A stretch of 64,000 nt of DNA from Candidatus Latescibacterota bacterium (GTDB lineage: Bacteria > Latescibacterota > UBA2968): contig JAJEDY010000048.1 in assembly GCA_022821275.1 (NCBI GenBank), positions 1 through 64,000 of the forward strand, read 5' to 3'. Of the stretch, positions 25,928 through 37,962 are shown piece by piece. Position 1 is the stretch's first letter, and each line of letters starts with the position of its first letter. The notes under the pieces are model-generated. The model saw nothing but the letters and a program-made list of their open reading frames with translations, was not told the DNA's origin and did not search any database. Position numbers and translations under genes: made by a program.

Positions 25928-28288
25928 CTACTTGTGCAGGATAAAGGCTCCTCGAGACAGCTTGCCCATGCTCTCCTGTACTTCGGATTCCACGACAAAA
26001 TAGTACAGCCCGGAAATGACCTCTCCACTGAGGAACCGGTCCTTTAACTCCCAATTGGTCTCGCCGAGAAGCGGGTTGTCGTGTTTGATTATCGCCACCA
26101 TATCGCCCGATACCGAAAAGATGCGGATCGTGCACTTGTGGGGCAATCCCACAAATCGCAAGCTCTCGGCACCCTGGTAACTCTGGCCGTCCAGAGTCAC
26201 ACTGAACGGGTTGGGCACCACCCGCACCTGTCGCTCCAGGTTGTCGCTCATTGTGCTACTGGCCATCTTGGGGCGCAGCGGCACATTGACCTTTGTCTCC
26301 GGCGAGGAGTAGCCGCCCTCCAGTCCACTTCCAGTGAGGTGTTCCCGGACTTTCAGAGGCAGATCGGCCAGAGTCACTGACCCTTCGCTCCAGTCCTGTT
26401 TGGGAGAAGCAACGGCGCGGACATTGTAGATATAGCGGAAGCCAGCCAGAGAGTTCGTATCTACATACCTATACGTTCCGGCACTGGTGGCGGGAATCTC
26501 TTCCACCAGTGCCCACGGGCCGTATTCCTGAAAGGTAGATCGGTAGATCCGGTAGGCCACAACGTCGGCCGCCCCATATTCGGGATTGATTGCCTTTTCA
26601 GCTGCGTCGGTCCACGAGATCTCGATGTTGGCATCCTGGTTGTTTCCCGCCTGAAAGTCCACATCTGGTGGGGCGTTGGGGATGCGAAAGCCGCTGTCGT
26701 ATGCGAACTGGGCGTGCGATAGGTTTTGCAGAAGGGCTTTTTCACCCTGGGCGAGCACCTGCTTGCGAGCATCGTCATTCAGGCCCCTTTCCCCCACCCC
26801 GAATGCCCAGCTCATCTGGTCCCTTGCAAAACCGGTCCTGGAATCGACATTGCTCTCTTCTATGTCCCCGGCGTGGCCGAAGACATAGGTGACCACGATC
26901 TTGGCCTTATCTCCAGGCGCCAGATCGTAGGGACCGTAGATCTGGTCGGACCAGACGACCCCCTCCGAGGGGGGATCGGCCATTGAGGGAGCCGTGTAAA
27001 TATCGTAGAGTTCGGCCATACCTACGCCCTTGCCGATGGGATCGTCGATATTATCAAGCCCGTGTGCCCTGAACCAGTGCCCCAGAACCTGGTCGCTCTT
27101 CGGATCCACATAGCCCTGTACCAGATCGTTCGCGTTGAAAACGTGGCTGGAACCGGAATTGCGAAACGCCAGGGGGGCAAACCCGGCGTATTCGGGCGCG
27201 ATCGGTGTGCCCTTTGGCCGGTCTCCGCTGGCGGGGAAGGAACCACCGGGGTTTTCAAGGTCGGGATCAAATGGATCTCCCGTGTCTTCCTCAAAGCTAT
27301 TCGTGGTATTCCCGTCATATACATAGGTGATGTATTTGCCGGCAAAGTCCGCAGCGGTCAAGCCGCTGAGGGAATTGGGCTGAAAGCCGGGAGAGCCAGA
27401 GAAACGGAAGAAATCGTCCAGCCCACCCGACCTGTTGTATCGGATCATCCCACCTTCGTGCCCCCACCGGTAAGAGGTACCGGTGGAATTGACGTAGAGG
27501 GTGTTGTTGAAGCCGAAGTAGGTGTCGTTGAGCTGTTTGTCGCCCCGGTTCTCGAATTCGACATCCACGATAATGAAGTCGTCAAAGTCCTGGTGGCTCC
27601 AGGCGTATATCTTCCGCGTCATCACGATGTTGTGCTTGAACCGCGTCTGGGTGATGTGAATTTCCTCAGGCGCGTCCTGCACGGGTGGATAGATATGGTA
27701 GTCGTAATTGTGAATTTCGTAGGGGTCGGCGGCTGTGGCATCGCCCGACTTGGGCGTTGCGCCGGGATACCAGTTGGCCATTTCCAGGCCGACCTTGATC
27801 CCTCTGGTGGGCACGACCGTGCGGATACCCCAATTGGCCTCTGGGCCGTTCAGGATATCGTAGATCATCGGGAACACATCCTCCGAGGGGTGGCGCGGAC
27901 CAGTCCATGAGACGTGTTTTTCTCCATCCACGTTCGTGAGTACCAGCACGCCATTGCCGGATGAATGCATGGTGCCTTCGGACTTGTTCGCACCGTCAGA
28001 CCAGGCCTTGTCACCCCAGTATTCCATGTAATCGGTAGGATTCATCAGGGTGTAAAATCCCATCATCATGCCGGGGTAGATCAGACGGAATGCAGCCCGG
28101 CCCGCGCTGTCGGCGTAGTGCATGCCGGAAAACCCGTAGTTGTGAAAGGTCTCCCAGACAAGCGAGCGCGTCATCATGCGGCTGGCGTAGTAATCGAGCT
28201 GGGCCGAAGCGGTCAGGGCGCCCGACAGCAGCAACGCCAGCGCCAGCAGGCCCACCCCAAGCCATTTCTTTATCAGAGATACAAACAT
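25928..28288 (-). CDS. large exported protein with Fn3-like and FlgD-like/T9SS-type C-terminal domain
   Basis: The protein has 786 residues. A signal peptide (about 1-29) is followed by a large domain of unknown type (about 30-540), an Fn3-like segment (about 560-655, VAYRIYRST, YNVRAVAS), and a C-terminal domain with VVPNPFSV and GLYYFVVES, the pattern of FlgD-Ig/type-A sorting domains. It may be a surface protein that binds the substrate taken up by the TonB receptor, taking the place of a SusD partner. GGAGG lies 7 bases before the ATG. It is 27 bases after the receptor gene. Confidence 0.7.
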   Translation of the reverse strand: MFVSLIKKWLGVGLLALALLLSGALTASAQLDYYASRMMTRSLVWETFHNYGFSGMHYADSAGRAAFRLIYPGMMMGFYTLMNPTDYMEYWGDKAWSDGANKSEGTMHSSGNGVLVLTNVDGEKHVSWTGPRHPSEDVFPMIYDILNGPEANWGIRTVVPTRGIKVGLEMANWYPGATPKSGDATAADPYEIHNYDYHIYPPVQDAPEEIHITQTRFKHNIVMTRKIYAWSHQDFDDFIIVDVEFENRGDKQLNDTYFGFNNTLYVNSTGTSYRWGHEGGMIRYNRSGGLDDFFRFSGSPGFQPNSLSGLTAADFAGKYITYVYDGNTTNSFEEDTGDPFDPDLENPGGSFPASGDRPKGTPIAPEYAGFAPLAFRNSGSSHVFNANDLVQGYVDPKSDQVLGHWFRAHGLDNIDDPIGKGVGMAELYDIYTAPSMADPPSEGVVWSDQIYGPYDLAPGDKAKIVVTYVFGHAGDIEESNVDSRTGFARDQMSWAFGVGERGLNDDARKQVLAQGEKALLQNLSHAQFAYDSGFRIPNAPPDVDFQAGNNQDANIEISWTDAAEKAINPEYGAADVVAYRIYRSTFQEYGPWALVEEIPATSAGTYRYVDTNSLAGFRYIYNVRAVASPKQDWSEGSVTLADLPLKVREHLTGSGLEGGYSSPETKVNVPLRPKMASSTMSDNLERQVRVVPNPFSVTLDGQSYQGAESLRFVGLPHKCTIRIFSVSGDMVAIIKHDNPLLGETNWELKDRFLSGEVISGLYYFVVESEVQESMGKLSRGAFILHK

Positions 28289-28315
28289 TGAAATTCCTCC
28301 AGTGTATATTCAAGG

Positions 28316-31300
28316 TCAAAACTTCAGGCGTGCGCCGACCACCCAGTTGCGGGGATAGCGGCCCAGTCCCTGGTCGTAACGGTCTATATCGCCGTCCCCA
28401 TACTTCAGATAGGTGCCGTTATCCGGGTCTGGCATCTGCTTCCCCCACTGTATCCAATCGAAACCGGTAGTCATGTCGGCCTTGTCGTTCCAGAGATTGC
28501 GGATCTCCAGAAAAGCGGTGGCTGTCATAGTGCCGCCAATGTAGAATTCCTTCTCCAGGTTGATATCGCTAACCAGAGAGATCGGCCCGGTCCGTCGCTC
28601 CTGGGGACCTGTCGGAGGCGTATAGTTGAAGGGAATGCCGGTATGGAGCCGGTAGAGCAACGATATCCGGAGGCTGGCCAGGGGTGCAATGTGAAAGTCA
28701 GCAGGACTGGAGAAAAGGAATTGCCCGCTGAGAATATTGCGCCGATCGATACCGCTTTGCAATGTCGGCGTATTGTATCGGCCGATAGTGTACGCATAAA
28801 TCCCTGGCTCGAGTATCTCCACCGGAGCGTTCCAGTAGCCATCGGACAGAGGCTCGCCGATTCGGCTATCGTAATCCCTGAGTTGTGCCCTGGCCCTTTC
28901 GGCCAATTGCACCCGCTCCTCCTGGGTGGGCGCATGGGGGACCTCCTGTCCGTCCGCCTGCGCATCCACACCCACGAAGTATCGGTCACTCATGACGTAT
29001 GAGGGGCCAACCACGTGGTAGGCTCGCCAGTTCCGAAAGCCGGAGTTATTCATATTTTTTGTCCACGCGAGATTGTACGCCACGTTGAACGTGACCATGT
29101 TGCTGAACTGCTTTCGCAGAGAGACCTCGAACCCCCGGGACCACTTCCGACCCCGGTTGCCGGATCCCCTTGAAGATACGCCGTCGTACCCGAAAGCCGG
29201 TTCCTCCAGGCGCCAGGAGGTGGAGCCGTTGGTGATAATCCCCATCTGATCCCTGTAAAAGGCGGTGACACTGGCAACGTATTCACCGGCGAAGTTCCAG
29301 TCAAATCCGGCCTCGAAACTGGTTGATTTTTCCGGCTCGATGTCGGACATCCCGGAGACCGCGTGGTGGAACTGCTTCAGGCTGTTGTACTTCTCCCTCT
29401 GATCGATCTGTCCGTTCCCGTTCACATCCCTGTCCTCTCCGGTCCCGCCGAATTCCCGCTGGTAAAAATTCTGGATATCGGGAAATTGCCGGAAGACGCC
29501 AGTGAAGAACCGGATCGTGGAGCGATCGGTGATGGGATGAGAGACCCCAATCCGGGGACTCCAGGCGTGCAAAATCGGGAGGTCTTCGGTTACGGGCATG
29601 TTTCGAAAGCGCGTCAGGGATTCGTAGTGTCTGAACATCCAGAGCGTGGCGATATTGCGCCAGCCCTTTACCGGATCCATCGCGTCGAACCGGATACCGG
29701 CGTTGATCACCAGGCCCTCAAATTCCATCTTGTCCTGGATATAGATCCCGTACTGGATGGGATGAGCCCGCTCCATACCGATGATGGGGTCGCCCGATCC
29801 GCCAGCAAGGCGGATCGTAAAAGCGCGGGCCTGCCGGGAGCCTTCCTCGTGGTGATAGAGGCCGTAGCGGGTGATCTCAAACCCGGTTTTGACAAAGTGT
29901 CCCTTGGTGACCTGGCTGCTCAGATCGGCTTTGAGGCGCACCCGCTTGTTGTCCATATACTTAAAGGAATAAATGTCCCTCGGCAGGAAGTACCCCTTGC
30001 TGTCGCGCCGGATGCCTTCGGTAACAGGGGGCACATCGCTGGTGTCGGTCAGGGTTTGCTGCCAGTTGAGACGCACTTCATAGAAGGTCGTGGGGGATAG
30101 GGTATGGGTAAAGAGGAGATACGCCATCCTTTCGCTGAAGTTCTGTTTGCCGGCTGCGGAATAACCCTCGGGCAGGAACAGGTTGCGCCCGCTCCTGGTG
30201 ATACCCCGCACACCCCCATCGGTATCTAGCTGCTGGCCAGCGAAGGGATCATCGGGATCGATCCTCGTATTGGATCCTCCAATTCGCCTGCTGCCTCTGG
30301 TTCCGGGATCGAACCCCTCGTAGTAGGCGAAAACCCCGCCCAACTTCACCTTGAAGTTGGGGGACGGCCGGGTGACAAAATTGCCGAAGGTCTGGATGTT
30401 AAACGGCTCGCGGTTGAGCGCGCTGGGATAGATGGGGGCCTTGCGACTGTGGGCCGCATTCACAAAGAAGGAGACATCCCTGGCGATCGGACCAGAGGCC
30501 GAACCCTCCAAATAGTGCCCGAACACGCCCGTGTAGTCGGTGCGTTCATGCACCTTGCGCCCGGTCTCGGGATCGGTCTCGTTCGCAAAGGTCGGATCAT
30601 TCCAATCCACCTTGCCTGCGTGGAAGGGATGATCGTAGATATTCGGTCCCCAGTGCCTCTTGGCCGGCAGGTCCAGGCGGTATTCCCCAAAGCCCGTATA
30701 GGCGTCCCGGCCCTCTTTGGTGACCAGGCTGATCACGCCGGCCTGAGCGTTGCCGTACTCGGCCTCCATCCCACCGGTAACCACCTGCACCTCCTGCAGG
30801 GCACTTTTGTTGATGCCCATCCAGGTGGGGGCGACAAATCCGTCGTTGTTGACGAGCCGAACCCCGTCAATTTCCACGAAGGTATCGTTTGAGCCAGCCA
30901 TAGACGCATTGTTGCTGCCCCGGATGCGGAGATTGCCGTCCAGCGACACGCCCGGCTGTAGCGCAATCACCTCATCAAGGGTGCGCGCAAGGGGTACGTT
31001 CTCGATGTCCTCGGCATCGACGACATAGCGGCTGAAGGTCCGGTCCGGCTCCACTGGCGGTCGCTCGGCAATCACCACCAGTTCTTCGGCCTGTAGCGCG
31101 GCCTCCACCAGGTTAAAATCGACGGTGGTGGTGAAGTCCGCACGCACGACCACATCCTGTTTGGTCGCCGCGGTATAACCGACCATTGAGGCTTCCAGTT
31201 TATACCTGCCAGGTTCGACCGACAGGATGAGAAAGTAGCCCTCTGCATCGGTCGTAGCACCCCTGCGGGTGCCCTGGATCACCACGTTGGCCCCGGGCAG

Positions 31301-31429
31301 TGGCGCGCCAGAGGCGTCGGCCACAACACCATTGAGTTTGCCGACCGTCCCGGCTGGTACGTCTGCGGGCGAGAAGGCGACCAGCACCCCAACGAGAAAC
31401 GGGCAAACCAAATAATAAAGGTATTTCAT
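28316..31429 (-). CDS. TonB-dependent receptor with N-terminal carboxypeptidase-regulatory-like domain
   Basis: The protein has 1037 residues. A signal peptide (about 1-27) is followed by a carboxypeptidase-regulatory-like beta-sandwich (about 30-110: GVVADASGAPLPGANVVI), a plug (about 130-250: LDEVIALQPGVS, EIDGVRL, EYGNAQAGVI) and a 22-strand barrel ending in RLKF, a terminal aromatic as in outer-membrane proteins. This is the SusC/CirA-type architecture for import of large or scarce substrates. No SusD gene is present. AAGGAGG lies before the ATG. Confidence 0.9.
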   Translation of the reverse strand: MKYLYYLVCPFLVGVLVAFSPADVPAGTVGKLNGVVADASGAPLPGANVVIQGTRRGATTDAEGYFLILSVEPGRYKLEASMVGYTAATKQDVVVRADFTTTVDFNLVEAALQAEELVVIAERPPVEPDRTFSRYVVDAEDIENVPLARTLDEVIALQPGVSLDGNLRIRGSNNASMAGSNDTFVEIDGVRLVNNDGFVAPTWMGINKSALQEVQVVTGGMEAEYGNAQAGVISLVTKEGRDAYTGFGEYRLDLPAKRHWGPNIYDHPFHAGKVDWNDPTFANETDPETGRKVHERTDYTGVFGHYLEGSASGPIARDVSFFVNAAHSRKAPIYPSALNREPFNIQTFGNFVTRPSPNFKVKLGGVFAYYEGFDPGTRGSRRIGGSNTRIDPDDPFAGQQLDTDGGVRGITRSGRNLFLPEGYSAAGKQNFSERMAYLLFTHTLSPTTFYEVRLNWQQTLTDTSDVPPVTEGIRRDSKGYFLPRDIYSFKYMDNKRVRLKADLSSQVTKGHFVKTGFEITRYGLYHHEEGSRQARAFTIRLAGGSGDPIIGMERAHPIQYGIYIQDKMEFEGLVINAGIRFDAMDPVKGWRNIATLWMFRHYESLTRFRNMPVTEDLPILHAWSPRIGVSHPITDRSTIRFFTGVFRQFPDIQNFYQREFGGTGEDRDVNGNGQIDQREKYNSLKQFHHAVSGMSDIEPEKSTSFEAGFDWNFAGEYVASVTAFYRDQMGIITNGSTSWRLEEPAFGYDGVSSRGSGNRGRKWSRGFEVSLRKQFSNMVTFNVAYNLAWTKNMNNSGFRNWRAYHVVGPSYVMSDRYFVGVDAQADGQEVPHAPTQEERVQLAERARAQLRDYDSRIGEPLSDGYWNAPVEILEPGIYAYTIGRYNTPTLQSGIDRRNILSGQFLFSSPADFHIAPLASLRISLLYRLHTGIPFNYTPPTGPQERRTGPISLVSDINLEKEFYIGGTMTATAFLEIRNLWNDKADMTTGFDWIQWGKQMPDPDNGTYLKYGDGDIDRYDQGLGRYPRNWVVGARLKF

Positions 31430-31476
31430 AGAAAAACCTCCTTATCGCGTAAAGTCGAATCTGAAATGACACATGG

Positions 31477-32190
31477 CTACTGCTGGGTATAGAACTTGAA
31501 CCGCACACCGACGTTGAGCTTCTGGAAAGGGAAGACCTCTTCCAATCCCCAGGCCTCCAGCGGACGCACACTACCCAACACGACGTTATACTGCCCTCTT
31601 AAGTCAATGGTCAGAGATTGGGAGGTGAAAAACTGCACGCCCAACCCAACATTGAGCCCCAGCGTCATGTGCTGGTCAATCGCAGGCTCCAACAGCAGAT
31701 TCTCGTTCAGAGGCGGCGCGGGCTGACCGGGCCAGATCAATCCACTGACCTCGTTCTTATATTTAAAATACCCCGTACCCACCACCAGATAGGGCGCCCT
31801 ACCCCCGCCTTCTGTCAGCTTCCTGCCCCCCTGATTGAAATGATACAGCCAGCTAATCGTCCCGCCCATCCATGTCATCTTCGAACTGGCCTGTGGGCTG
31901 GCATACTCCTGCTTGTCGATCGACCAGAGAAATTTCCGGTTCTCCAGTTCTCCGCCACTGTATTTGACGTAGTGTCCCTCCACTTCGGCGGTCCACTGCT
32001 CGTTGAGGACATAGAGCACCGTCCCACCGAGATTGATACCACCGGAGGGAAACCATTCGTTTAATTTGAAGGTAGGCAGATCGTAGCTGGCAGCGACGCC
32101 AAAGCCCCACGTCCCACCAACTTGCGCAACGGCGCCAAAGGGCCAGGCCAGCAGCAAGACCCCCGCTAAGAGCAACATCCTATATTTCAT
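31477..32190 (-). CDS. small outer-membrane beta-barrel protein
   Basis: The protein has 237 residues. A signal peptide (about 1-22, MKYRMLLLAGVLLLAWPFGAVA) is followed by alternating strands with aromatic girdles, for example FGVAASYDLP, GGINLGGTVLYVL and LTIDLRGQYNVVLGS, ending in VRFKFYTQQ. It looks like an eight- to ten-stranded barrel of the OmpW/OmpA-fold type. It begins the receptor operon, with AAAGGAGG before the ATG. It may be a porin or an assembly helper for the receptor. Confidence 0.7.
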   Translation of the reverse strand: MKYRMLLLAGVLLLAWPFGAVAQVGGTWGFGVAASYDLPTFKLNEWFPSGGINLGGTVLYVLNEQWTAEVEGHYVKYSGGELENRKFLWSIDKQEYASPQASSKMTWMGGTISWLYHFNQGGRKLTEGGGRAPYLVVGTGYFKYKNEVSGLIWPGQPAPPLNENLLLEPAIDQHMTLGLNVGLGVQFFTSQSLTIDLRGQYNVVLGSVRPLEAWGLEEVFPFQKLNVGVRFKFYTQQ

Positions 32191-32594
32191 AGTTCCTCCT
32201 TTTTTGAGACCTTCAATCCCCTCGAAAACCACCCCAAAATACTATTAGATCTTCCCGCGCTTCACCTCCTTTCAACAGGTATAACAGTTTACTACATAGC
32301 ACTTTAATACAAGATTTATCTTGACAATAAGAGACAACCCGTTTTATTTTTTGACCTGGATATGCGAGGAGGTGACAGCACCTCTTCACATCTTTCCAAA
32401 GCCGTTAGCTCCAGTCCCACCAAGGTCGGTAGCTGACGGCTCTTTTTTTGTTTGAACTCACATATCTCTTTCCCTTATACACCTTTCTGATAGTGCCCAG
32501 CAGTTCATCAGAAAGGTCTGAAAAAAAGATAAACTTTAAGAATTCCTATGTCAAGCTATTAGTCAAAGTAAATATGCCCTTCTCAATTTCATAT
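32191..32594. other. 404-base intergenic region with signals on the plus strand
   Basis: This region separates transporter gene B from the receptor operon, both on the minus strand. The only strong signals are on the plus strand: a promoter-like pair at 32321-32348 and a clear terminator at 32399-32451 (see the ncRNA entry). A minus-strand promoter for the receptor operon is expected here but I could not place one with confidence. Confidence 0.5.
32321..32452 (+). ncRNA. candidate small RNA with promoter and terminator, antisense to the flanking genes
   Basis: A perfect -35 TTGACA (32321-32326) and a four-of-six -10 TTTATT (32343-32348) are 16 bases apart. A transcript from about 32355 would contain a GAGGTG/CACCTC hairpin (about 32370-32385) and end at a strong terminator: AGCCGT...ACGGCT stem with TAGCT/AGCTG extension (32399-32444), then a run of seven T (32445-32452). 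The product would be about 98 bases with no ORF. Part of the 3' half recalls GEMM riboswitches (AAAGCC, GGTAGC), but the class signature is incomplete, so I do not call it one. Confidence 0.45.
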
Positions 32595-34586
32595 TCACCA
32601 ACTATGCACGCTGTGACCTTGTCCAGGGAACCAGGCAGCGTCGATGAGGAAACACCAGACGACCCCGAACGTGTACCCAATCAGCAGACCCAAAAACAGG
32701 GGCATGGCCCGACGGTAGAGAGCCACCCCGCCAACGCGCATCAGGATCGCCTTGCAGGCCCAGGCGAAGAAGACCGGGATGACGAGAGACTTAGAGTTGT
32801 CCGAAGCGGATATGGCCAAACCGATGGGATGGATTGACCACCAGGCGAACCGATACCTCAGGAAGGTGAGCAAACCCATCAGAGCCGCGCCAATGCCAAA
32901 GAAGATCATCCGGTCCTGGGCCATTGGCCCAGGTGTCCTCATATGCGACAGGGTAGAGGAGAAGACACTCTTGGGATTCCCTTTGTAGTAGAACGCAAAG
33001 TTGTAGGCCCCGTGGATGTATCCCAGATAAAGCGTAAGCCAGACCGAGGCGACAAGCCCGACCAATGCACCGACCACTACCCAGAACACCAGCATGCGTC
33101 GGTTTTTCCGAATTAAGTCACCCAGCTTGACGGCCTGCGCCAGCCCCGGCGCGAACAGGCCCCGGATATAGTCGATCAGCGAATATGAGAGAAGCATCGA
33201 GGTGAGGGTGGACCCTGTCATCACGTCGGTTCCACGCATGTCCATCGTAAAGGCCTGTGCGGTAATGGGGGCCTGTGTGATGACCAGGCCGGTCTCGGAG
33301 ACGATTCGAGCCATCCCGATGTAAATGATCCCCGTACCGGCCAGGAACACCAGTGCGGTAAGGAGGTCCATGCCGGATTGATGGATCAGAAACAGGATAT
33401 ACAACAGGCTCAGCAACAGGCCCAAAACCGATGTGCGGTAAGAGAGGATTTCCTGGCGGTCGTCGGCTGGATAACGGGAATTGAGGGCCTTCAAAAATAC
33501 GTCCCTCAGATGGTGCCGGGCCACCCAAAGTCGCCAGAGGACCAGGCTGGCCAGTGCGCCGAAACACTGCCAGGACTGAATCTCCTGATCGGCGGTGAAA
33601 GAGTCCGAGGGTTGTTCGGTCTGCAGGCCCATGCGGTTGATGATGTGCCCTTCCACCACGTGGATCACAAAGAAGAACCAGACGCTGAAGAGGACCTCCA
33701 GATTAGCGAAGTAAGCAAAGCCAAGGGTGTAGAACTGCAAAGGGCGAACTCGTAGGGACGGCGAGTAGCGCGTGAATTGGAAGTAGCCCCCGGAGGGGAT
33801 AAGGGCGATATCGGGGACGGCGGGAAAGAACCAGGAGAGAGATTTCCAGAAGAAGAGTCCAAACGCCAGAAGGGCCGCGACCCAGAAGAGCTTGCTCCGC
33901 ATCAAGGCCGGCCAGAGGCGCTCCGAATCGGCGTCTCGGGCCAATTCAATCGGTATGGAGACCAGCGGGTACACGAGTTTCTCGTGCTCGACCCACTGCT
34001 TTCGAAGGATGACCATCACACACGCCGTTCCAACCAGGATAGCCGCGATGAGGCTGCTCCACCACACCAGCGGGACCAGCCAGACCGTCCAGGGAGCCTG
34101 TGCGCCTGGAGGCAGCCCCTCGTAAAACATCCTCAGGGCCTCACGGTCAGTGGGCACCATCCAGGTGCTGAGATGGGGATGGTAGAATTCGGCCCACTGG
34201 TTTTCAGGGGTGTCGAAGTAGAACGGGGAAGTGATGATGCCCAGGAAAAAGCCAGTAATGCCGGAACCGGGAACGACCGACCCGACAATACCTATAGCCA
34301 CGACTGTCAGAAGTTCGGCGGGGGAAAAGGCAAGCCGTTGCCGATAGAGCTTGAGCAGAGGATTGAGAAATCCCACCAGGAGGACGAAGAGGGCCAGGAG
34401 TGGGAGTTGAAAATAGGCCAGGTTAAGCCGGGTGGACTTGACCACCGCTTCGGCATAGGTCACCCAGAGGTTGGTGAGGATCACAATGGAGAGCCCCAGA
34501 GCGACCGCCCGGAATGTGACCCCACGCTCGGGGAACGGACTGGCCTGCGTTTCGGGCCGTGGAGCAGCAATGACATTCTCAGACAT
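32595..34586 (-). CDS. large integral membrane protein, DUF6785/DUF6784-like (transporter paralogue B)
   Basis: The protein has 663 residues with about 14 membrane segments. It is the most divergent of the three paralogues here, yet keeps LAFSPAELLTVVAIG, TPENQWAEF, AWWSIHPIGLAI and a C-terminal AWFPGQGHSVHSW. AAAGGAGG lies 4 bases before the ATG, the best ribosome site of the three. A truncated toxin-antitoxin module and the tail of a lost gene lie just upstream. Function is unproved; substrate import is inferred from context. Confidence 0.7.
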   Translation of the reverse strand: MSENVIAAPRPETQASPFPERGVTFRAVALGLSIVILTNLWVTYAEAVVKSTRLNLAYFQLPLLALFVLLVGFLNPLLKLYRQRLAFSPAELLTVVAIGIVGSVVPGSGITGFFLGIITSPFYFDTPENQWAEFYHPHLSTWMVPTDREALRMFYEGLPPGAQAPWTVWLVPLVWWSSLIAAILVGTACVMVILRKQWVEHEKLVYPLVSIPIELARDADSERLWPALMRSKLFWVAALLAFGLFFWKSLSWFFPAVPDIALIPSGGYFQFTRYSPSLRVRPLQFYTLGFAYFANLEVLFSVWFFFVIHVVEGHIINRMGLQTEQPSDSFTADQEIQSWQCFGALASLVLWRLWVARHHLRDVFLKALNSRYPADDRQEILSYRTSVLGLLLSLLYILFLIHQSGMDLLTALVFLAGTGIIYIGMARIVSETGLVITQAPITAQAFTMDMRGTDVMTGSTLTSMLLSYSLIDYIRGLFAPGLAQAVKLGDLIRKNRRMLVFWVVVGALVGLVASVWLTLYLGYIHGAYNFAFYYKGNPKSVFSSTLSHMRTPGPMAQDRMIFFGIGAALMGLLTFLRYRFAWWSIHPIGLAISASDNSKSLVIPVFFAWACKAILMRVGGVALYRRAMPLFLGLLIGYTFGVVWCFLIDAAWFPGQGHSVHSW

Positions 34587-34616
34587 TATTCCTCCTTTGA
34601 TCTGGAGGCAAGTCGT

Positions 34617-34790
34617 TTATCCACGCATCGCCTTGTAATCAACCGTCGCAAAAGCACCCTTCCATTCCCTTCCAAACGCAATCACATCTTCCGCGCCCTC
34701 TTTCAGCGATACCCCGACCACATTCGGCGCCACCTTTCGCACGCATGGCCTGTTCTCGCCCTCTCGATGCGGCACAATAACCGCGGATGA
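34617..34790 (-). pseudogene. 3' fragment of an unidentified gene fused behind the truncated hepT
   Basis: A frame overlapping the end of the hepT reading frame stays open for about 57 codons and ends VDYKAMRG-stop. The internal sequence (for example NVVGVSLKEGAED) looks like real protein. A shorter, decayed copy of the same end sits at 15767-15796. I do not recognise the family. The sequence joins hepT near 34790, so a deletion or recombination event probably fused the two. Confidence 0.5.
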
Positions 34791-35029
34791 GTCAGTAGAT
34801 TGCGAAAATCTACGATTCGACGAGCCTGTGTGATGCTACCGAAAATCTCCTCCGACAGGCGATTAAGGGCTGCAAGTGCTTCGCCAATAATTGTGAACTC
34901 ACGCTCTACTGAGGAACGGACGAGCCGGTTGTCTTCGTAGCTCTGGAGATCGAGGCCCTGAACTGCGTTGGTGATTGCATCGCAAGCCTCAATCACATCA
35001 GACAGGTAGGCTCTTGCGTCACGCGGCAT
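34703..35029 (-). pseudogene. hepT: HepT-like HEPN toxin, truncated at its active site
   Basis: The first 95 or so residues match HepT/DUF86 (LSDVIEACDAI, SVEREFTIIGEALAAL, RRIVDFRNLLTH). The RX4HXY active site normally reads RNxxxHxY; here it reads RNLLTHPR, so the tyrosine is gone. After it the sequence (LLCRIERARTGHAC) is unrelated to HepT and is an out-of-frame reading of the gene tail at 34617-34790. In studied pairs MntA adds AMP to this tyrosine, so both the catalytic and the neutralised residue are lost. The start at 35029 overlaps mntA by 11 bases. Confidence 0.75.
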
Positions 35030-35327
35030 ACAGCAACTCCTTCGTCTTCTCAATGTCGCGGGCGATATAGCGGTTCTTCACAGCTCCGGAAACGACCAGA
35101 TCGACTTGATCACCCAGTATCGTTCTCAGGTCTTCCAGCAGACCGAAATAGGCATCGACTCGAGCATAAGGCTCCATCGGACCAAGTTCGACCAATAGAT
35201 CCACGTCACTCTGACCGGGATGGAAGTCATCGTGTAGAGCTGAACCAAAGGCGTCCAACCGGGTTACGCCATGGCGCTTGCAGGCTTTCGCGATGGCGTC
35301 GCGCTTGCTTTCGAGAATCTCTGTCAT
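35019..35327 (-). CDS. mntA: MntA-like nucleotidyltransferase antitoxin
   Basis: The 102-residue protein is a minimal nucleotidyltransferase with AFGSALHDDF and SDVDLLVELG, the GS...DxD metal motif, and a later DLVV aspartate. In characterised pairs it AMPylates the HepT toxin. The start at 35327 has GGAGG five bases upstream; earlier in-frame ATGs lack a site at a good distance. It seems intact while its toxin is broken. Confidence 0.8.
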   Translation of the reverse strand: MTEILESKRDAIAKACKRHGVTRLDAFGSALHDDFHPGQSDVDLLVELGPMEPYARVDAYFGLLEDLRTILGDQVDLVVSGAVKNRYIARDIEKTKELLYAA

Positions 35328-35384
35328 CATTACCTCCATTGCAATCGAACCGCGTTCGCTTATGAACTTCTGTTGCACATCGCT

Positions 35385-36833
35385 TCACAACACCGCCAAT
35401 AATTTCCCCACCTTATCCTCAAAAATCATCTGCCATTCAGACGCCAGCATACAATCGCTATCTTCCTGTGCACCGCCCCAATTTTTGAGTTGCTCAGCCG
35501 TTGGCGTATAATAGATATAACCATTTGTAACACCTGCGATAAAAGTAAACTTATGCGGAGACCTTTTCTTAATATTGAGACCAATCTCCACCGACAACTC
35601 ACCCGGGAACGTAACCAGAACAAATTCCCCAACCCTCAAACCCATCATCTCAACTTCGATTGTACTCTCTCCAGCCGCTACATTCCGCGCCTGATGTTTC
35701 TTAAGCAAATTTAGATTGATCTGGATCCTCGTCAATTGCTCCATCGCGTAAATATTCTCAATATACTGATTCATATTCGCTCTATTTTCGGCATCCAGCT
35801 TCTTCAAACCATCTCTCCCCATCATCTCCTCATGCAAATAACGGTGAGAATAATAAGATGGAAAATCGCGGGAAAGATTGTATTTCACATACAGGGGAAT
35901 AAACGTCTTCAAATTGAGACTCGTCCCCTTCAAAGCCTGAAGCAATTGTATCTGTTCCGCCTGTAGAGATTCTATACGCCCCGCGAGATCGGCCCTCGGC
36001 AGTTCAATGGTCTCGCGAACGATCTTCAACGCCCCGCCTTCACTGCTACAGATCTTCTTCAACCCCTGCAATGTGTTAAGACCCAGCATATTTCCCAGAA
36101 CCTCGGCATCCCGAGGATTATTGACATCCTTGTACAAAATCGGATTGACATCGCCTCCGCAACCCTGCAAAAACAGCGCAATCGTATCCTCGCTCAAATT
36201 ATTTTCAATCACCTTTGACGCAAACCCAGAAATATCCGCCGTATTCTCTCTACTCGGCACCTCCAGAATCGGATGACACGCAAAATTGAAAACAACCGCC
36301 AGCGTCTCTCCATCCTCCCGGTCCAGCCGAAGAATGCCAATCTCCGGATCAACTGGCCCGACCGAAGCGACCTCCTCATCGGGTGGAAGCGAATACGCGT
36401 GACGGACATCGGCTTCCTTTCCATTCTTCAACACAAGCCTGCGGTTCTCCATAATCCTGTCCTCGTAGCCGGTACCAGCACCGACACTTACGGGGACCAT
36501 ATTTTGCCACGCCTCTACCACCGCCCGAACAGTCCGCGCTTCCACATCTGCACAAACCCTGCCATGACAATGGCTCGCATTGATCAAAACACGCGCGGGA
36601 TCGAGCTTTAACTCCCTATTCAATTGCGAACGCACATTGGCGAGAAAGTCATTTCTGATAGAACCGATCTCAGCTATCGCTACCGCATCTACAGTCACAA
36701 CAACAGCGGTCTCAGCACCAGACTTCAACACCAGCGCTTTGACGTAAAGTGGATCATTAGCCGGTCCCGCCTCTGAATCGGTTATCACCACCCTGGCAAC
36801 ACCCGCCAGAAAATTGTTCGAAATCATTTCCAT
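35385..36833 (-). CDS. neutral/alkaline ceramidase-like hydrolase
   Basis: The protein has 482 residues and no signal peptide. It matches the N-terminal catalytic domain of neutral ceramidases: AGVARVVIT start, NASHCHGR (Zn-type histidines), FACHPILEVP, SGFASKVIE and LQGCGGDVNP. It lacks the C-terminal domain of the eukaryotic and Pseudomonas enzymes. Uncultured bacteria have many such proteins acting on unknown amides. The ATG at 36827 has a better-spaced TAAGG site than the first ATG at 36833. It is 7 bases after a PhyH gene on the same strand. Confidence 0.8.
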   Translation of the reverse strand: MEMISNNFLAGVARVVITDSEAGPANDPLYVKALVLKSGAETAVVVTVDAVAIAEIGSIRNDFLANVRSQLNRELKLDPARVLINASHCHGRVCADVEARTVRAVVEAWQNMVPVSVGAGTGYEDRIMENRRLVLKNGKEADVRHAYSLPPDEEVASVGPVDPEIGILRLDREDGETLAVVFNFACHPILEVPSRENTADISGFASKVIENNLSEDTIALFLQGCGGDVNPILYKDVNNPRDAEVLGNMLGLNTLQGLKKICSSEGGALKIVRETIELPRADLAGRIESLQAEQIQLLQALKGTSLNLKTFIPLYVKYNLSRDFPSYYSHRYLHEEMMGRDGLKKLDAENRANMNQYIENIYAMEQLTRIQINLNLLKKHQARNVAAGESTIEVEMMGLRVGEFVLVTFPGELSVEIGLNIKKRSPHKFTFIAGVTNGYIYYTPTAEQLKNWGGAQEDSDCMLASEWQMIFEDKVGKLLAVL

Positions 36834-36840
36834 ACCTTAC

Positions 36841-37962
36841 TTAAAGCCCCAGATCTCTCAGATTGTAGTTCTTCAAAATACTCTCCCGCGTCTCCTCATT
36901 CCAGCGATTGGCATCCTCCTCCCCAATCAAAGGCTGATAAACATAGCGAGGCTCATCTGGAAACCGTTGCTGCCGCGCATCAATCCCCAAAGCGATCAAA
37001 CGAGAGCGCTCATAGATGCGCGCCTCGTCGTAAATCACCTCCTCGTCCCCGCGCCTCACCCGCGCATTCAGAACAGAAGACCGGCGGTGAAAGCCAAAAT
37101 TGATCGTCATCCGCTTATCCGGCGACGTATTGGCAAAAGAAGCGTGCAGAGCCTGGCGGTTGGACATAACCACATCGCCGGGTTCACACACCATGGGAAC
37201 CGCCCCCGGCAAACGGTCAGAACCATTGTTATCCGCAATCATCGCTTTAATATCCAGCTTGCCCTGCTTGTGCGACCCCGGAACCACCCACACCCCATTG
37301 GCCGCAGTACTACCGAAAAGCTGAGCCATAAAATTAAACCCATGCGTCCCTTCATCCCAATCGGGCCTATCCCACTGCGTGGTGCCATCCTGATGCCAGG
37401 CCACCGATGCCCCCAGCCCCGGCTGCTTGACAATAATAGACTCCGTAAACGGCGTAAAATCCGGCCCATTGATCTGCTCTGCAACAGACAGCAGTTCGGG
37501 ATGTCCGTAAAGCCGCAAACAAGAATCCATAATTTGCAGAGGCGCAGCGATATTGGAAATCACATAATCCGGCGCATCAGCCGGAGGCTCTGGCTCTGTC
37601 ATCCTGGCCGGATGCCGCCCATTATTGCTCGACGTACCCCCTACGGGATCGCTCAGTGGTCTGACAAAGCGAAAAGGCTGTCGCGCCAAATCTGCCCCAA
37701 GTGCTCTGCGGCCCTTTGCATCAACCACCGCGTCTTTAGTATGCGGCGCTCGCTCAAACGCATGCGCCAGATCCGCATGCAAATCTTCGAGTTCTTCATC
37801 GCCCAGCGCACCCTCAAACACATAAAAACCCACGCGCCAATACGCCTCTACAATATCCTCATCCAGCGTACCGTCCGCATTAAATTTGATAGCACCGCGA
37901 TTCCCAAGCGCGAACGCCATCTCCTCGCCCTCGCGGACATAAGCGTCCTCTGATTTATCCAT
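36841..37962 (-). CDS. phytanoyl-CoA dioxygenase family protein
   Basis: The protein has 373 residues from the start at 37962, which has AAAGGAGAG upstream. Iron ligands are HxD in AWHQDGTTQW and the distal His in ALHASFANTSPDKRMTINF, with the arginine for 2-oxoglutarate close behind. It is longer than the other two, with N- and C-terminal additions. It is sandwiched between transporter A and the ceramidase-like gene. The heptamer array at 37977-38004 lies directly upstream of its ribosome site. Confidence 0.85.
   Translation of the reverse strand: MDKSEDAYVREGEEMAFALGNRGAIKFNADGTLDEDIVEAYWRVGFYVFEGALGDEELEDLHADLAHAFERAPHTKDAVVDAKGRRALGADLARQPFRFVRPLSDPVGGTSSNNGRHPARMTEPEPPADAPDYVISNIAAPLQIMDSCLRLYGHPELLSVAEQINGPDFTPFTESIIVKQPGLGASVAWHQDGTTQWDRPDWDEGTHGFNFMAQLFGSTAANGVWVVPGSHKQGKLDIKAMIADNNGSDRLPGAVPMVCEPGDVVMSNRQALHASFANTSPDKRMTINFGFHRRSSVLNARVRRGDEEVIYDEARIYERSRLIALGIDARQQRFPDEPRYVYQPLIGEEDANRWNEETRESILKNYNLRDLGL

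Follow-up and report, generated by a model that had tools for sequence, protein, structure and literature searches.

A mntA-hepT Toxin-Antitoxin Module with a Toxin Gene Truncated, Probably by Deletion, in a Candidatus Latescibacterota Bacterium

Introduction

The best described relative of the locus reported here is the type VII (HEPN-MNT) toxin-antitoxin system MntA-HepT of S. oneidensis (SO_3165/SO_3166), with which it shares the position of mntA directly upstream of hepT, the overlap of the two frames, the RX4H motif in HepT, and the GS...DXD motif in MntA, the latter being published as GSX10DXD. HepT is presented in PMC11586414 as a five-helix bundle, in which RX4HXY is located in a loop (Y-loop) between helices 4 and 5. 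According to PMC7641770, S. oneidensis HepT is still toxic upon substitution of Tyr104, while its neutralisation by MntA is only weakened.

Decay of toxin-antitoxin pairs is known from other systems. The review PMC2654758 covers anti-addiction by a chromosomal toxin-antitoxin system and the degeneration of the chromosomal pair ccdO157 of E. coli, which the present case resembles, albeit with other toxin and antitoxin families. In the largest toxin and antitoxin families, more than 50% of the genes are solo genes and solo antitoxins are common, as given by Makarova et al. 2009 (PMC2701414). An antitoxin without its partner is also what is described here; unlike in that survey, the remnant of the lost toxin is readable at several loci and the lesion can be named. 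Type II toxin-antitoxin systems are mentioned for sponge-associated Latescibacterota in PMC12993501, in which HepT does not occur. A search of the open-licence literature by title and start of abstract yielded no work on orphan MntA among the matches listed.

Organization of the Locus

The window is the whole stretch of 64,000 nt that was analysed. Its source is a draft genome of 101 contigs (G000); ten congeners are designated G001-G010. The features are compiled in Table 1.

Table 1. Features at and around the truncated mntA-hepT module.
Feature	Position	Strand	Basis
DUF6785/DUF6784 protein gene, flank common to G006 and G007	32595..34586	-	Pfam, blastn
Heparinase II/III-like gene remnant, last 55 codons, own frame	34617..34785	-	homology to G007, G008
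Heparinase-gene DNA, out-of-frame HepT' tail (PRLLCRIER...), stop at 34703	34703..34785	-	ORF, translation
hepT' frame, 108 aa = 81 native + 27 foreign residues	34703..35029	-	ORF, alignment
Join hepT/heparinase-like gene, 0-1 bp common to both sides	34785..34786	.	blastn
Surviving 5' part of hepT (MPRDARAYL...RNLLTH + one base), R76/H81 kept	34786..35029	-	blastn, alignment
mntA, intact minimal nucleotidyltransferase antitoxin, 102 aa, GS-X11-DXD	35019..35327	-	ORF, Pfam, NCBIfam, motif
Opposite edge of acquired piece: end of mntA-hepT homology at 35343-35358, varying with the relative; congener match restarts at 35381	35343..35381	.	blastn
Neutral/alkaline ceramidase-like gene, flank common to nine congeners	35385..36833	-	Pfam, blastn

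On the minus strand, mntA is followed by hepT, whose ATG at 35029 lies within the mntA frame. That MntA is intact, as the initial annotation had it, was borne out: the frame is open and encodes a complete nucleotidyltransferase (PF01909, 6.4e-11, 42.9 bits, cut-off 21) with the motif GS-X11-DXD and a later acidic position in VDLV. The X11 spacing, which is one residue longer than published and distinguishes the protein from MntA of S. oneidensis, is also found in close relatives, while that of G043 is X12 by our count. The NCBIfam model MntA_antitoxin is matched at 2e-7 with 30.8 bits, below the family cut-off of 60. A match to PDC-S09, a candidate defence family of PADLOC, extends over the full length of the window MntA (1.3e-31); PADLOC models gave no match at E values up to 1 to either the truncated toxin (HepT') or the intact HepT of G041.

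By blastn, homology to mntA-hepT modules spans position 34786 up to 35343-35347, with DNA identities of 85.6% to G041, 84.0% to G040, 80.3% to G017, 78.2% to G015, and 67.7% to G043; G019 is 87.6% identical over 34955-35358. The intact modules that are matched belong to other families of the phylum. Homology to the heparinase-like gene of congeners ends at 34785 (90.2% to G007 over 34500-34785 and 77.8% to G008 over 34622-34785), and the last hepT base adjoins the first heparinase base, with at most one base shared. Since DNA identity is 78-90% on both sides of the join, chance is excluded. The join had initially been placed at 34790; it is real, but its actual position at 34785/34786 is about five bases away. 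Likewise, the other gene's tail into which hepT runs is indeed that of a heparinase-like gene, but it is entered in another frame, the gene's own frame being that of its last 55 residues with the stop at 34617. For this reason, an in-frame fusion protein was rejected. Among the 60 relatives searched, none showed a HepT'-heparinase fusion.

The Site in Congeners

Congener G007, which is present as one contig of 6,530,187 bp, matches the window at 26739-34785 (92.8% over 8,080 bp) and at 35381-36848 (91.6% over 1,468 bp). Between these flanks, 3,009 bp of G007 (L026 5936-8944) are replaced in the window by the 595-bp mntA-hepT' piece. Beyond 36848, G007 is rearranged, and G006 is collinear with the window at 92-94%. 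Because both flanks match a one-contig congener that carries 3,009 bp at the position of the insert, comparison of the sequences makes a deletion far likelier than an assembly chimaera.

The gene order in G007 is ceramidase-like gene, small two-gene pair, heparinase-like gene, and DUF6785 gene. The heparinase-like gene encodes 861 aa with the Pfam domains DUF4962 and Hepar_II_III_C; its counterpart in G008, a genome without a match to the ceramidase stretch, encodes 836 aa. Among 21 genomes searched at 1e-60, the whole gene was found in these two only, and no match to its missing part was obtained elsewhere in G000, whereby a relocation within the source genome was rejected. G002 contains mere scraps of the gene, and the contig of G009 ends 58 bp downstream of the ceramidase-like gene in sequence resembling the start of the heparinase-like gene. 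In G001, G003, G004, G005, and G010, the ceramidase-like gene is directly followed by another gene. Within the genus (G000-G010), the distribution of the heparinase-like gene is thus patchy, with a whole gene in G007 and G008 and its tail in the window and in G006. G006 has lost most of it through a second, different lesion, in which a 189-aa frame (L028:8902-9471) fuses sequence without a Pfam match to about 27 last residues of the heparinase-like protein. The small two-gene pair occupies the place of mntA-hepT' in G007 (L026:5969-6450) and the corresponding position in G006 (L028). It resembles, as we assume, a BrnT/DUF4258-type toxin with its antitoxin; its first ORF matched nothing in Pfam or NCBIfam.

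The Truncated Toxin

HepT' starts with MPRDARAYL and matches intact relatives as far as RIVDFRNLLTH, that is, up to His81 of R-NLLT-H; there follow PR and 25 further out-of-frame residues (PRLLCRIERARTGHACERWRRMWSGYR) before the stop. The translation confirms the initial observation that RNLLTH is kept with PR at the tyrosine position. Of the RX4HXY motif, R76 and H81 are present, and Arg replaces Tyr across the join. The motif is complete in HepT of G040, G041, G017, and G043, in which the mntA-hepT operon is also whole; in the window, the gene order and overlap of a type VII operon are present with a hepT that is not intact. PF01934 covers only residues 13-81 of HepT' (2.6e-5, 24.4 bits versus 60.0-64.9 bits in the four intact relatives), and the NCBIfam model HepT_toxin, against which the window protein alone was scored, gives only 13.4 bits at a cut-off of 60. 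Close intact relatives are 114-125 aa long and carry RNQLTHQY. The alignment with intact HepT proteins, which had been proposed as a check, revealed Tyr in 24/24 relatives and PR in none of them; these were picked as intact frames (23 loci of the wider search described below and one phylum locus) and do not form a random sample. The possibility that PR is a family variant was rejected on these grounds. At one further locus of the wider HepT-found set, L087, HepT has His at the Tyr column.

The initial annotation held the toxin to be dead for want of its tyrosine, with the antitoxin kept. A dead toxin is supported by the exact join and by the invariance of Tyr in the 24 relatives, but the missing tyrosine does not stand as the cause: since, by the account in PMC7641770, the Tyr-substituted toxin of S. 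oneidensis remains active, loss of this residue alone would be dangerous rather than safe. The inactivating change is, from the structural models, likely the loss of the Y-loop end together with the last helix, the latter distinguishing the window protein, in addition to the lacking Tyr, from its S. oneidensis counterpart. AlphaFold models the last helix of the intact G041 HepT at residues 88-113 (pLDDT 96-97 over residues 91-110). HepT' is well modelled at residues 1-80 (pLDDT 82-95), while residues 81-108 have a pLDDT of 58-60, and both the Pfam comparison and the models show a HEPN bundle that is incomplete for want of the last helix. Helical segments are predicted with low confidence in the foreign tail (82-93, 98-105), so the tail may to some extent replace the lost helix. 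The best 15 PDB matches of the G041 model are all HepT/HEPN toxins (among them 5yep, 6m6u, 6m6w, 7bxo, 7ae2, 7ae6, 7ae8, and 7ae9) with a probability of 1.00 and E values of 0.02-0.1, none being below 0.001. The best of these are 5yep, 6m6u, and 7ae6-7ae9. In the fold alignments, identity to the solved HepT proteins is 12-15%. A HepT profile found no match at 1e-3 among PDB sequences. The PDB matches of the HepT' model are weak, with a best HEPN match of E 1.2 and probability 0.80. With the Y-loop end and the last helix gone, the 81-residue stub with its foreign tail would be inactive as an RNase.

Origin and Age of the Loss

A full-length hepT was sought in related genomes, as had been suggested: a search of the 10 congeners yielded no close mntA-hepT module, and it is whole in other families of the phylum, which contribute the nearest copies of the window genes. 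Therefore, horizontal acquisition of mntA-hepT would be the simplest reading of the sequence comparisons. Plasmid carriage of close relatives was not evident, 4 of 72,556 plasmid records matching with a best identity of 42.3%. The source genome itself has two other MntA-HepT modules (C25 and C84), both whole.

Over hepT codons 1-81, pairwise dN/dS of the window copy is 0.069 versus G041 and 0.056 versus G040 at dS 0.65-0.70, and intact pairs yield 0.044 (G041-G017), 0.033 (G040-G017), and 0.026 (G041-G040) for the same codons. A value of about 0.06 in the remnant indicates that most of the divergence accumulated under constraint and, consequently, that the truncation is recent relative to that divergence. 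The recent decay that had been proposed is thereby supported by the exact join and by the signature of purifying selection in the hepT remnant. For mntA, dN/dS is 0.070 between the window and G041 and 0.162 between the window and G019; these low values would mostly reflect the time before the loss and therefore neither prove nor exclude continued use. In the same vein, a recent loss of hepT implies that the intact mntA frame says little on its present use. The window copy may already have been truncated on arrival, acquisition and deletion being conceivable in either order.

Recurrence across the Phylum and Beyond

In a census of 64 genomes of the phylum, 20 mntA places were obtained at E up to 1e-12, and all were classified. 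Nine have a whole hepT (G041, G040:C56, G017, G043, G001:C117, G019:C48, G000:C25, G005, and G048), ten have an open mntA without a whole hepT, and at one (G046) both genes are broken. A hepT remnant is readable at five of the ten open mntA places. Besides the window, these are G016:C19 with a stop after 26 aa, G015:C79 with two bases lost close to the start and a changed C-terminus, G019:C4 with an internal deletion, and G039:C159 with a frameshift, whereby the lesions of G015:C79 and G039:C159 may also be sequencing errors; mntA of G015 has Leu instead of Met at the usual start. At the other five (G018:C101, G040:C37, G037, G045:C30, and G045:C36), hepT is absent or reduced to a few codons and presumably was once present. 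The close clade (at least 71% identity, G046 being included on a partial match) comprises four whole modules, four mntA without a whole hepT, and one with both genes broken. The reverse search, starting from hepT, returned 20 places, of which the window, the G007 heparinase tail, the G019:C4 fragment, and G015 were set aside; an open mntA lies just upstream of hepT at 16/16 whole hepT places of the phylum.

The wider set, found by HepT and therefore biased towards whole hepT, included 66 loci, 65 of which were examined after L096 (the G007 heparinase tail) had been dropped; L037, L038, L039, L088, and L092 are the census loci G040:C56, G041, G017, G043, and G019:C4. By our reading there are 52 whole pairs, eight loci with a defective or short HepT beside a full MntA match (L042, L047, L058, L079, L083, L087, L092, and L102), four with both partners defective (L053, L080, L100, and L101), and one undecided at a contig start (L040). 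A whole HepT with a defective MntA was read at none of these 65 loci, the one at the contig edge being undecided. Inspection by eye covered L042, L047, L058, L079, L080, L087, and L102. Among the 52 whole pairs, HepT of L044 reaches the contig edge and MntA of L075 is without the searched motif; the profile matches of six distant MntA proteins (L089, L090, L093, L094, L095, and L097) cover only 73-90 of 102 positions.

Both L058 (HepT from 4001) and L047 (HepT from 3511) encode a full-length HepT beside a full MntA match, with the RX4HXY His replaced in the former and the Arg in the latter; they are possible point-mutant counterparts of toxin-first decay. At L080:3300-4500 of Synechococcus sp. 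SB0662_bin_14, only fragments of MntA are left, and HepT goes out of frame about 15 residues after RNLLTHAY.

Alternative Explanations

The asymmetry between the partners might also mean that orphan MntA is selected as an anti-addiction or defence gene, which would adenylylate HepT proteins brought in by mobile elements or those of the two resident modules. The ten open mntA of the census and the presence of whole modules in the source genome are in line with this, as are the full-length PDC-S09 match, which on sequence grounds would allow a role for MntA alone, and the documentation of anti-addiction for ccd in PMC2654758. However, toxin-first loss by itself predicts the same pattern, the recent loss of hepT in the window makes an open mntA frame expected without selection, PDC-S09 is a candidate by name only, and the MntA proteins of the resident modules are merely 43% and 38% identical to that of the window, each having its own HepT. 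Selection of the orphan is, hence, considered unlikely. Still a little less likely is its extension to the phylum, in which mntA would repeatedly have been stripped of hepT and then selected as a resident antidote to incoming HepT proteins, that is, as an immunity gene. We read the asymmetry as toxin-first decay, which explains it without a new role for MntA.

A false join during metagenome assembly or binning would be conceivable for a draft genome, but on either side of the 595-bp insert the sequence resumes at one and the same G007/G006 locus, which would take two false joins, and G006 has its own lesion in the same heparinase-like gene; an artefact is accordingly very improbable. Least credible of all is a working or repurposed HepT', either as a toxin that MntA cannot modify at Tyr or as a dominant-negative partner, for in spite of the conserved R76 and H81, the well-modelled residues 1-80, and the toxicity of the Tyr-substituted S. 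oneidensis protein (PMC7641770), an out-of-frame tail of low model confidence has taken the place of the last helix, the fusion is confined to the window among the relatives searched, and a toxin escaping its antitoxin should be lethal.

Conclusions

Summarizing, a type VII mntA-hepT module would have been acquired horizontally between the ceramidase-like and the heparinase-like gene, and a deletion would have taken the 3' third of hepT along with almost the entire heparinase-like gene, fusing the remnants out of frame. MntA, judged from its sequence, is probably an adenylyltransferase which is now without a partner and on its way to decay; it would persist because toxin-first loss is tolerated, while antitoxin-first loss is not. 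This history of an acquired module with a deletion-fused, inactive toxin stub that is outlasted by its antitoxin is very probably correct as a whole. The locus looks like a known toxin-antitoxin module whose decay is real, recent, and ordinary, rather than a new system.

To this are added a corrected reason for the likely death of the toxin and a modest recurrent pattern around the locus. Absence of the tyrosine by itself must not be taken as evidence of a dead HepT. The locus provides a clear, recent example of the decay of a type VII module, the toxin being lost before its antitoxin, whose frame survives longer. With 10/20 mntA places lacking a whole hepT, and no hepT-only locus read in the reverse counts, the phylum offers material on which anti-addiction by orphan MntA may be tested.
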